A DNA stretch of 22,150 bases from a virus: IMG/VR virus record IMGVR_UViG_3300006874_000163, positions 1 to 22,150 of that record. One strand, given 5' to 3'. The notes under the pieces were generated by a model. That model worked only from the letters and a program-made list of their open reading frames with translations, was not told the origin of the DNA and did not search any database. Shown here piece by piece: positions 2,227 to 5,240 of this stretch (positions are counted from its first letter, which is position 1; every line of letters starts with the position of its first letter). Both the position numbers and the translations under genes were made by a program.

Positions 2227-2658
2227 ATGAACAAGCTTGACCCACATACATTATTTTCTATCTTCGAACAAGGAGATGAAGAAATCTATAAAGAGCACGG
2301 TTTAGAGAGTAATCTTAAAAACCCATTTGTGCTTATAGGTATGGTAATAAGAGGTATAGAGAATTACCAAATGATGGATATGATGTATATGAAGCAATAC
2401 CCTCAAGAATATAAAAACGTAAGAGCGATAACCAGATACAAATACTACAATAGGTTATACAGCTATCTTACTAGGATAAAAAGTGATAGACTAGATAGTA
2501 AATTCACAATAGGAGATTCTTTTGATTTAGATAGTGTAAAAAATGCTCTTGATCATTTAAGGGTATATTACGAAAAATTAGAAGAATACGAAAAGTGTGC
2601 TGTCATAAAAAAATTTTTAGACTTCACTTATTTACAAAATAGAAAAGTTTTAATATGA
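2227..2658 (+). CDS. Hypothetical helical protein with UVR-like C-terminal motif, 143 aa
   Basis: The protein is predicted to be almost entirely alpha-helical and rich in Tyr, Lys and Glu, without a signal peptide. Near the C terminus, LEEYEKCAVIKKFLD (118-132) resembles the UVR helical hairpin of UvrB/UvrC (YEKAA-x-IRD-like). That motif mediates protein-protein contacts and recurs in unrelated phage proteins. I do not recognise the rest. Its stop overlaps the ATG of the second SGNH gene (ATGA), so the two are translationally coupled and may work together. The ATG at 2227 follows AAAAG and a TATTTATA element. Confidence 0.6.
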   Translation: MNKLDPHTLFSIFEQGDEEIYKEHGLESNLKNPFVLIGMVIRGIENYQMMDMMYMKQYPQEYKNVRAITRYKYYNRLYSYLTRIKSDRLDSKFTIGDSFDLDSVKNALDHLRVYYEKLEEYEKCAVIKKFLDFTYLQNRKVLI

Positions 2659-3455
2659 TAAATACTTTATGGGTATTTGGGGATAGCTTTAGCGTACCCC
2701 TTGGGATTATACCATATACTTCAAGAAGAGGTATATTTAGATCTGACTTGTTTGATAATCAACAAAGAGACTCTGCTTGGTATAATCAAATAAAAAAAGA
2801 AGTAGGAGTAAAAGAAATAAAAAATACCTCTCTCCCTGGAGCTAATAATAATGAGATACTGACTTACTTAATAGATAAGTTACCATTTTTTGAACAAGGC
2901 GACCAAGTCATTATAGGTTTAACCGGTTGTGGCCGAGTTGAACATACATGGGATAATGTCCCAAATCAAAATGCTTTCCAGACCTTTTCGTCCCAAGTAT
3001 GGGTTACTATGACTTACGATATACCTAGATTAAAAGAACTCCAGGGTAAAGACTTTCACAAACAATCAGGCTACCTAGTAGATGAGATAAATAATCAACA
3101 TCTTTATTCTAGTAGGTATATGCACTACCAACACTACCCTATCTTAAAACTAGCACTTTACATCTATAATTTTTTATGTAAAGATGTAATAGTGTGGCAC
3201 CCGATCCTTTGGAGGGAATACGAAAATATTACTACTTACACAAAAGGTAGGTATACTGACAATCATTGGTCCCCTAACGGTAATATAGAATTTAGTAAAA
3301 CAATAATACCATTGGTTGGAAAAGGGTTTAAAGTCTTGAAAAGCAAACAAGGGTGCGACGGAATTAAGTACCTGAAGCATGAATATTACATACATAAGGG
3401 GGATAAACCGCGGGCAAACTCTCGCGTTTCGCGCGGCGGTAAAAATCTTTTATAA
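2655..3455 (+). CDS. SGNH/GDSL hydrolase-like protein 2
   Basis: The N terminus LWVFGDSFSVPLG has block I GDS with Ser11. Block II appears as NTSLPGANNNEIL (57-69), with the oxyanion Gly/Asn. VIIGLTGCGRVE (85-96) fits the block III region, and TDNHWSPNG (201-209) supplies Asp202 and His204 of the triad. All catalytic positions are therefore present, unlike its paralogue at 1014, and a carboxylester hydrolase (for example a glycan deacetylase) is plausible. The substrate and location are unknown; no signal peptide is seen. The fold should end near residue 222. The remaining ~44 residues are basic and are encoded by an unusually GC-rich stretch with inverted repeats, so they may be a late addition. 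Confidence 0.75.
   Translation: MINTLWVFGDSFSVPLGIIPYTSRRGIFRSDLFDNQQRDSAWYNQIKKEVGVKEIKNTSLPGANNNEILTYLIDKLPFFEQGDQVIIGLTGCGRVEHTWDNVPNQNAFQTFSSQVWVTMTYDIPRLKELQGKDFHKQSGYLVDEINNQHLYSSRYMHYQHYPILKLALYIYNFLCKDVIVWHPILWREYENITTYTKGRYTDNHWSPNGNIEFSKTIIPLVGKGFKVLKSKQGCDGIKYLKHEYYIHKGDKPRANSRVSRGGKNLL
3407..3440 (+). other. GC-rich inverted repeat at the 3' end of the SGNH 2 gene
   Basis: ACCGC (3407-3411) pairs with GCGGT (3436-3440). Inside lie imperfect stems including CGCG-TTT-CGCG. The block is followed by AAAAATCTTTT. It is strikingly GC-rich against an AT-rich genome and lies inside the last codons of the gene, just before the promoter of the next gene. It may act as an attenuator or insulating terminator. 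Confidence 0.35.
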
Positions 3456-3461
3456 AAACGC

Positions 3462-3492
3462 TTGTCTCCTTGACTTTTTTTTCTTATATTTG
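3462..3492 (+). promoter_or_regulatory. Bacteroidota-type sigma-A promoter for the lipoprotein gene
   Basis: TTG at 3462-3464 and TATATTTG at 3485-3492 are separated by 20 nt, matching the Bacteroidota consensus (TTG, about 19-21 nt, TAnnTTTG). A start site a few bases downstream gives a leader of roughly 10-13 nt before the ATG at 3510. This is the only promoter of this type with both elements that I found, and it implies expression by unmodified host RNA polymerase. Confidence 0.55.
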
Positions 3493-3509
3493 AGTATAAA
3501 ATCAAGGTT

Positions 3510-4073
3510 ATGTTATTTATATTTATTAAAGGTTTATTCATTGGTGCAATATACGGAACAATATCGTATATCTTATACTTTAACACTAAAAGATTTCTAT
3601 TATTAGTTTCTAGCTTAGTACTATTAACTTCCTGTACTAAAGAAGAAGTAAGTACACCTACTTGTATTAATAATGACTGCTCTGCTCAATTATCGATCCC
3701 GGGTCAGCTTGATGTAAATGGATTTTACCATATAGATTTAGATTGGACAGGTGATCATTATCCTCGATTTAGTATTGATATAGATGCTACTATTACCGAT
3801 CCTTGGTATTGGTATAACGGTATACCTTCTGTTCAAGCTAACTTTTATACAGAGGATACTTGGCAGTTTAATCATGATATTCTCCCAGTAGTACAAGGAG
3901 CTAGAGTATATCTTAGAAAATATTCCGAAGAAAGAGCTTCAGGTAAACGTATAGTTGGCCCTTTTCCCCCGGAAATGGAAGGAGATACTATAGAAATCTC
4001 ATCAAGAATATGGTGGGAAGCCGGCATGGCTACTAAGTATAAAGACTTTTCTATAAAATTTATTGTAGAATAG
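3510..4073 (+). CDS. Predicted surface-exposed lipoprotein, 187 aa (moron candidate)
   Basis: Residues 26-42 (TKRFLLLVSSLVLLTSC) form a lipoprotein signal peptide: basic n-region, hydrophobic core and lipobox L-T-S-C, with C42 as the lipidated cysteine. The next residues, T-K-E-E, contain K-(D/E)2, the export signal that sends Bacteroidota lipoproteins to the cell surface. The mature domain (~145 residues) looks beta-rich with many aromatic residues; its family is not recognised. Two extra cysteines (C52, C57) could form a disulfide. An additional hydrophobic segment (1-24) precedes the signal, but no later in-frame ATG offers a shorter start. The gene has its own host-type promoter and neighbours no functional partner. 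Phage lipoproteins of this kind typically block superinfection by binding receptors or injection machinery; that role is inferred here. Confidence 0.7.
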   Translation: MLFIFIKGLFIGAIYGTISYILYFNTKRFLLLVSSLVLLTSCTKEEVSTPTCINNDCSAQLSIPGQLDVNGFYHIDLDWTGDHYPRFSIDIDATITDPWYWYNGIPSVQANFYTEDTWQFNHDILPVVQGARVYLRKYSEERASGKRIVGPFPPEMEGDTIEISSRIWWEAGMATKYKDFSIKFIVE

Positions 4074-4074
4074 T

Positions 4075-4095
4075 TGATTCTTTGAAAAAAAATCA
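4075..4095 (+). terminator. AT-rich hairpin after the lipoprotein gene, weak terminator candidate
   Basis: TGATT (4075-4079) and AATCA (4091-4095) form the base of a stem that continues as TTT/AAA after one mismatch. It begins two bases after the lipoprotein stop codon. The stem lacks G-C pairs and a U-tract, so its strength is doubtful. Confidence 0.2.
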
Positions 4096-4156
4096 TTATC
4101 TTAATTTATATTATATATAAAAGTATATAGAAATATAAAAAAATAATATATAAGTA

Positions 4157-4174
4157 TATAAATATATATAAATA
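4157..4174 (+). promoter_or_regulatory. Tandem T4-type late promoter elements (TATAAATA x2)
   Basis: TATAAATA occurs at 4157-4164 and again at 4167-4174, in register ten bases apart, 21-31 nt before the ATG at 4195. This is the T4 late -10 element recognised by gp55, and a gp55-like gene lies downstream in the same operon. The whole 4096-4194 leader is almost pure A/T, which raises the chance of coincidental matches. Even so, two exact copies directly before the structural operon are a credible late promoter. Confidence 0.5.
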
Positions 4175-4194
4175 ACTAATAAAATTAATCTAAT

Positions 4195-4929
4195 ATGTCA
4201 TTATCGGCCGAAAAAATACAAAAAAACTACGAAAAGCACCTTAAGATTATAGACACTTACATAGGAGATCGTAAAGATTCTATTAAAGAGATGATCTCTC
4301 ACATGGAAGATACTTACGTAATGGCTCCTGCTAGTGGTAAAACTTGGTACCATAGTGCTTTTCCCGGTGGCTATGTTGATCATGTTAATAGAGTTGTGGA
4401 ATATGCGGTGAAGCAGTCAAGGTTATATCAAGAGATGGGTGGAACAATAGATTACACCGAAGAAGAACTAGTCTTTGCCGCATTATTTCACGATTTAGGT
4501 AAGATGGGTGATGGAGATCGTCCAAACTATATACCTCAAACAGATAAATGGCGTCAAGATAAGCTATCAGAAATGTATACTTTTAACCCTGATCTTGATT
4601 TTATGTTAATTCCAGACAGGTCGTTGTTTATTTTACAGAAATTTGGTATAAAAGTTAGTCAGAAAGAGTTTTTAGCTATTAGATGTCATGATGGTGTGTT
4701 CGATGACGCTAATAAAGCATACTTTTTTAGTCATGTCGAGTCATCTAGACAAAAAACCTCTATTATCTCAGTACTTCACAGTGCAGACTTCTTAGCCTCT
4801 AAGGTAGAATACGATATGTGGAAGAGAAATGGTGGATCCTCTACTCCAAAAACACAGAAAACAGGTTCTTCCACCGGAAAACGTGTAAATTCTTCGGAAG
4901 GTCTTACTAATATGTTAAAAAACCTTTAA
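4195..4929 (+). CDS. HD-domain metal-dependent phosphohydrolase, 244 aa
   Basis: The H...HD...H...D signature is visible: H63 (GYVDHVNRV), H99-D100 in AALFHDLGKMGDGD, H165 in IRCHDG and D198 in LHSADFLASKVEYD. The HD superfamily hydrolyses phosphoesters of nucleotides or nucleic acids with bound metal ions; here the substrate could be (d)NTPs, an alarmone or an oligonucleotide signal. The C-terminal ~35 residues are Ser/Thr/Lys-rich and probably disordered. It is the first gene after the tandem late promoter, three bases before a small membrane-protein gene and upstream of the late sigma factor, so it is expressed with virion genes. No sequence feature ties it to the particle itself. Confidence 0.8.
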   Translation: MSLSAEKIQKNYEKHLKIIDTYIGDRKDSIKEMISHMEDTYVMAPASGKTWYHSAFPGGYVDHVNRVVEYAVKQSRLYQEMGGTIDYTEEELVFAALFHDLGKMGDGDRPNYIPQTDKWRQDKLSEMYTFNPDLDFMLIPDRSLFILQKFGIKVSQKEFLAIRCHDGVFDDANKAYFFSHVESSRQKTSIISVLHSADFLASKVEYDMWKRNGGSSTPKTQKTGSSTGKRVNSSEGLTNMLKNL

Positions 4930-4931
4930 TA

Positions 4932-5240
4932 ATGTTAATATATCAAATTATTTCCGGAATATTAGTTGTTATTCTTATTATTTTTATTTATATTCTTAGA
5001 AACCTACTTAAAAAAGTAGAAAAATACGAGGATGTTGTACAAGACCAGGTGCGATATCTACAAAATATATCAAACGCCGTAGGCGAAGGTCAAAAGCACC
5101 TACAGAACCTTGACGAGAAAGGGGTCTTCCAGTCAGATGATGAGGTCGGTTATTTTTTTGAACAAATGAAATACGTACAAGACGAGCTAAACCGATACAT
5201 GCTCCCCGAAAATTATGGCAAGGAAGAAATCCAAAGCTAA
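4932..5240 (+). CDS. Small membrane-anchored coiled-coil protein, 102 aa
   Basis: Residues 4-25 (YQIISGILVVILIIFIYILRN) are one hydrophobic helix. A Lys/Glu/Gln-rich region (28-95) follows, with heptad-like spacing expected to form a cytoplasmic coiled coil. There is no lipobox and no cleavage site. The family is not recognised. Its 3' end overlaps the start of the sigma-factor gene by 26 nt, implying coupled expression. Possible roles include tethering a phage process to the membrane or spanin/holin-like work, but none is supported by a specific motif. Confidence 0.65.
   Translation: MLIYQIISGILVVILIIFIYILRNLLKKVEKYEDVVQDQVRYLQNISNAVGEGQKHLQNLDEKGVFQSDDEVGYFFEQMKYVQDELNRYMLPENYGKEEIQS

Follow-up and report, generated by a model that had tools for sequence, protein, structure and literature searches.

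The most interesting part of the phage DNA analysed here (IMG/VR record IMGVR_UViG_3300006874_000163; the whole stretch of 22,150 nt is called the window) is a conserved GC-rich element that lies outside positions 3462-4073, the feature which an earlier sequence-only reading had singled out as the gene of a surface-targeted lipoprotein and a candidate superinfection-exclusion moron. On balance, we lean towards the view that a large T4-like lineage, marine and from other aquatic habitats, carries with this element an undescribed single-copy cis-acting site, probably for replication, packaging or late-operon control, which is kept at the nucleotide level while the adjoining genes swap freely. 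The affiliation of the lineage with T4-like phages related to Immutovirus is strongly supported, and so is the position of the lipoprotein gene in a slot at the junction of the early small-gene region and the late-structural module, flanked on its upstream side by the single-copy, sequence-constrained GC-rich element and on its downstream side by a spacer, rich in AT, with the promoter of an HD-domain phosphohydrolase gene (HD). Taken as a whole, an early surface lipoprotein that would bind or mask from a replaceable slot, together with an independent DNA element, is the best explanation, which we put forward tentatively.

A replaceable gene slot upstream of the HD gene

In the window, the GC-rich element (3405-3439), the gene of the 187-aa lipoprotein precursor (3510-4073), the AT-rich spacer (4074-4194) and the HD gene (4195-4929; Pfam HD, phrog_5889), which is the conserved anchor of the slot, follow each other on the + strand, with a baseplate module downstream. 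Directly after the HD gene, in the window (4932-5240) as in nearly all loci, a 102-aa protein with an N-terminal transmembrane segment and a conserved DDEVGxFF motif is encoded. On the upstream side, a 266-aa protein (2655-3455; N-terminus MINTLWVFGDSFS) with an SGNH-hydrolase-like GDS start and no Pfam match stands where many relatives carry a T5orf172 (GIY-YIG-like) gene, and the GC-rich element overlaps the last codons of its gene.

A tblastn search with the lipoprotein retrieved three relatives from IMG/VR and, as a weak match, the hypothetical protein gp149 of the Flavobacterium phage immuto (vB_FspM_immuto), which is likewise encoded upstream of an HD phosphohydrolase and possesses a lipobox and a similar Cys pattern. 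Loci were then gathered via the HD gene and subsequently via the DNA pattern of the element, and the slot directly upstream of HD was assessed in the 158 loci with enough upstream sequence. A homologous lipoprotein is encoded there in approximately 130 of them, a count which leaves out two false lipoprotein calls (L021 and L022). The remaining occupants are diverse: a non-lipidated version of the protein (L184), a different secreted repeat protein (L049, L052, L074, L089, L127, L133 and L177), a methyltransferase-like protein (L095 and L113) or only a 57-aa ORF or bare spacer (L021, L022, L072, L098, L101, L151 and L167). The secreted short-repeat protein (xYxSQADVKVYxV) that follows the element in place of the lipoprotein was noted in L061 as well as in the seven loci named for it. 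In about 12 loci of the immuto clade, only ~300 nt separate the element from HD, too short a distance to accommodate a lipoprotein gene.

The slot is thus conserved but replaceable and not a one-off insert, since homologues fill the same position in immuto as well as in most members of the lineage. The designation as a moron consequently stands in part: an own promoter, replaceability and rapid divergence agree with it, while the conserved slot in most relatives and in immuto does not, nor does the result that no terminator-like site was found on the + strand between 3000 and 4400. Divergence is indeed pronounced, with a median identity among relatives of ~33% for the lipoprotein versus 83% for HD; even where HD is 90-100% identical, the lipoprotein reaches a median of 38% versus ~80% for a sigma-like protein in the same loci. 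Either strong diversification or an exchange of cassettes would be compatible with this decoupling of the lipoprotein from its neighbours, and the fast divergence could mean relaxed constraint or gene exchange instead of an arms race.

A single-copy GC-rich element conserved independently of reading frame

The element AAACCGCGGGCAAACTCTCGCGTTTCGCGCGGCGG (3405-3439, + strand) contains a 17-nt core, CGCGTTTCGCGCGGCGG (3423-3439), of which the window holds one copy with 0 expected in shuffles. Scanning IMG/VR by the DNA pattern alone, independently of any gene, recovered at least 120 stretches, and among the matches listed the element is located 190-1375 nt upstream of HD on the same strand, with the exceptions of L118, apparently a chance match, and a few loci that end before HD. 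This arrangement holds for 155/155 loci in which both are present. Thirteen contigs of 51-191 kb carry exactly one copy each, and in a 167.7-kb contig the element is the only 28-mer at the GC threshold used. When de-duplicated loci fetched by HD were considered, 39 of the 47 marine ones carried the element, 37 in its full form, and on the immuto side GCGCGGCG was present at up to one mismatch in 35 of 45, with 28 exact copies. Immuto itself carries only a shortened form; in its genome (160,410 nt, both strands) the hexamer GCGCGG occurs once, at the position of the element. In a 257-Gb collection of bacterial genomes, 17 exact pattern matches were found, none of them in a record named Bacteroidota, which is consistent with chance, and a DNA similarity search of plasmids and cultured phages gave chance-level matches only, among them 19 nt at the terminus of a short AS-1 record. 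A literature search for earlier descriptions of a conserved, GC-rich intergenic element in phages of Bacteroidetes retrieved none.

In roughly half of the lipoprotein genes, the element lies inside the coding sequence for the n-region of the signal peptide (LRAFRAAA), threaded through it in an otherwise AT-rich genome; elsewhere it falls in non-coding sequence or in a different frame. That it merely encodes a conserved n-region, with the non-coding copies as relics, could be argued from the peptide L(R/C)AF(R/C)AA, common to 43 distinct coding loci, but this is highly improbable. Intact copies stand outside the frame of the exported protein in nine loci (the window, L002, L003, L009, L016, L021, L022, L038 and L155), indels of 0-2 nt shift the reading frame of the element, and it is kept in loci without any exported gene. 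Within the coding copies, moreover, alanine is encoded by GCG in 129/129 cases versus 12/47 in the neighbouring lipobox region. Several other candidates were rejected. A structured RNA element is not indicated, as folding was no better than in shuffles (mean z near 0) and the only consensus hairpin never covaries; an Rfam search with the element gave only a chance match and none near the gathering score. Cumulative GC skew rises throughout and does not reverse at the element, GCGC and CGCG are overall not strongly avoided, so that restriction-site avoidance does not account for its rarity, and contigs of 51-191 kb cross the element, which discounts a fixed genome end.

As the element is frame-independent, uses only GCG for alanine, is kept without an exported gene and shows no RNA structure, a DNA site is the simplest reading, and we consider it probably cis-acting on the basis of these patterns of conservation. 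It would act as such independently of the lipoprotein. An unlikely, though not negligible, alternative is that the element is a boundary sequence which persists by seeding homologous recombination and so drives the exchange of the flanking gene cassettes. Gene content does vary on both sides of the element and the identity of the lipoprotein does not track that of the HD gene, yet recombination leaves unexplained both the fixed single position relative to HD and the retention of the short form in the immuto clade. As a probable cis-acting site, the element is a rare case of phage DNA conserved independently of reading frame and flanking genes. Learning what it does could reveal a key step, be it the start of replication, packaging or the control of late genes, in aquatic phages of an abundant but poorly known group.

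A lipoprotein gene with its own host-type promoter

The promoter that the sequence-only reading had placed before the lipoprotein gene, a TTG (3462-3464) separated by 20 nt from TATATTTG (3485-3492, + strand), proved base-exact and beyond chance. The pattern TTG-N17-22-TATATTTR occurs three times in the window versus 0.8 per shuffle and, in the complete immuto genome, 26 times on the + (coding) strand versus twice on the - strand, with the immuto matches mostly in the small-gene region at 60-76 kb. A host-type promoter precedes immuto gp149 too, with the box TATATTTA, and in eight divergent loci (the window, L002, L003, L009, L011, L016, L038 and L155) the promoter box is located 23-25 nt past the GC-rich element. 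That the lipoprotein gene has its own host-type promoter is thereby strongly supported, and the predicted promoter supports the transcription start of its own that had been proposed.

The spacer downstream of the lipoprotein gene harbours a promoter of its own, with TTG at 4074 and TATCTTA at 4097-4103, 20 nt apart. Its pattern TTG-N17-22-TANCTT[AC] is present in 90 of the 95 homologous lipoprotein-HD spacers, always with a spacing of 20 nt, versus 3/95 when shuffled. In the window, in two large contigs and in 28 of the 31 loci of at least 9 kb, no other 100-mer is as rich in AT as this spacer.

By eye, TATTTATA followed by an A-rich sequence precedes the start of immuto late genes (L231-L234) by ~25 nt and is a candidate for the late promoter of the lineage. 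As the promoter of the lipoprotein gene is host-type and differs from TATTTATA, it is consistent with a gene outside the late class; from this difference in promoter type, early expression is inferred.

The start codon (ATG at 3510) and its context IKVM are conserved among homologues. Overlooked before, an additional hydrophobic segment in residues 1-25 (approximately residues 2-25, 3513-3584) precedes the signal peptide; it is conserved in a subfamily to which the window protein belongs (L002, L003, L009-L011, L016, L019, L078, L079, L083 and L155) and absent from immuto gp149. The precursor has two hydrophobic segments ahead of the lipidated Cys (3510-3632), and cleavage would free a two-helix peptide of ~41 residues. 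The type II signal peptide (3585-3635) ends in the lipobox LTSC at residues 39-42, as had been noted, with the Cys42 codon at 3633-3635. LTSC follows a hydrophobic signal and agrees with [LVI][ASTVI][GAS]C, nearly all of the 93 distinct homologues carry a lipobox of the LxSC type, and Pfam LPAM_1 matches below threshold. The identification of the ORF as an envelope lipoprotein is strongly supported, and its destination, judged from these signals, is probably the outer membrane of the marine bacterial host.

Directly after the lipidated Cys, the mature N-terminus reads C-T-K-E-E, so that the K-E-E pointed out by the sequence-only reading is present. The resulting C-T-K-E-E-V fits the optimal surface export signal of Capnocytophaga, C-X-K-(D/E)2-X beside the lipidated Cys; the consensus given for Flavobacterium in the same paper is SDDFE (PMC5080379). 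The exact C-X-K-(D/E)2 is found in only 21/93 distinct homologues, while positions +2 to +7 are net negative in 85/93; surface display, as suggested by the motif, is therefore plausible for the window phage and not uniform across the lipoprotein family.

The mature domain (3633-4070), in which a Cys pair stands between the C-T-K-E-E start and the folded part, was rightly described as unrecognised. Across 56 aligned mature sequences, the lipidated Cys, a Cys pair of the C-x2-G-x-C type and several D, N, G, F and W positions are nearly invariant. The proposed structure prediction and remote-homology search delivered a confident Ig-like fold and no family: AlphaFold2 models a nine-strand Ig-like beta-sandwich (pLDDT 94.9, pTM 0.85), and Foldseek and VIA-align retrieve many unrelated Ig-like or beta-sandwich proteins. 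The best Z, 7.2, falls in the range stated for unrelated matches; the fold is thus a common one, from which no function is drawn and by which no family is excluded. Searches of Pfam, PHROGs and PADLOC with the protein and its homologues gave no convincing family, only scattered weak matches without recurrence, nor did a known exclusion or defence protein turn up as a homologue. A profile search against all PDB sequences reached a best E of 0.11, which is chance level, with none at E <= 0.1, and did not reveal a sequence relation to a solved exclusion protein; no close family emerged from Pfam, PHROGs or the PDB. By sequence, the lipoprotein is an undescribed, fast-evolving family with immuto gp149 as its cultured representative.

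Possible roles at the envelope

According to the proposed course of events, the lipoprotein would be made early in infection, lipidated at Cys42 and moved to the outer membrane; in the window phage it would probably be flipped to the cell surface, where the Ig-like domain may bind a host or competitor surface component. Judged from these sequence features, superinfection exclusion or other surface masking is the most likely use, though we assert it with considerable reserve. The generic fold counts against an exclusion-specific reading, and the high prevalence of the lipoprotein in the marine clade would equally fit a general role in infection. Somewhat doubtful, but still to be considered, is that the protein alters the host envelope otherwise, for example to take up a metabolite, to ward off predators or to interfere with a surface machine of the host; the generic binding fold and the variable content of the slot, mostly secreted proteins, are compatible with this, while no single target is specifically supported.

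A role in lysis is improbable. The lipoprotein would then be the outer-membrane half of a two-part spanin that fuses the membranes together with the 102-aa protein, whose transmembrane segment may be accompanied by a coiled-coil stretch. The two genes are at most one gene apart and mostly found together, and a very weak PHROG match (E 0.29) to an Rz-like spanin covers the signal region. Against it, the promoter is host-type and not the late-type motif, many loci that retain the gene of the 102-aa protein have lost the lipoprotein gene or carry another in its place, and the annotated holin and chitinase genes of immuto are located elsewhere. The mature domain, as modelled, is a globular beta-sandwich and not a short or coiled-coil o-spanin, and the gene was not found to be a late lysis-cassette gene with an i-spanin partner, as an o-spanin requires.

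Even less probable is a virion or adsorption-related protein displayed by the particles and not by the infected cell. Some virions carry Ig-like domains, and the baseplate module follows downstream; the lipidation signal and the host-type promoter speak against it, as does the dispensable slot. Homology to a virion protein, named beforehand as evidence against the exclusion proposal, was not found in the family searches.

Surface masking or exclusion thus remains our tentative preference, and its relation to known systems differs from what had been assumed. T5 Llp, cited as an analogue that blocks receptors or injection, is periplasmic and acts on the FhuA plug from inside (PMC9586334), so that a surface signal alone is no argument for an Llp-like mechanism. 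Exclusion lipoproteins of the Llp type share with the window family the phage-encoded outer-membrane lipoprotein and the proposed early expression, whereas Llp is small and jams its receptor from the periplasmic side and the window family has an Ig-like domain of 146-200 aa and, in the window, a surface-export-type N-terminus. The surface lipoproteins of the Capnocytophaga canimorsus type have the motif directly after the lipidated Cys in common with the window protein (PMC5080379), which differs in being phage-encoded, in the looser acidic motif of most homologues and in the extra hydrophobic segment of its subfamily. Immuto gp149 resembles the window lipoprotein in its slot between a T5orf172 gene and the HD gene, Cys pattern, lipobox and host-type promoter, in contrast to its plain signal peptide, longer mature domain, ~28% identity and shortened GC-rich element. 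With this cultured representative, exclusion by a large-domain surface-type lipoprotein is testable in Flavobacterium. The immuto genome also encodes QueC, QueD, QueE and QueF-type enzymes and a DNA guanine transglycosylase (DpdA) at L231:18607-37015, which suggests that its DNA may carry 7-deazaguanine.
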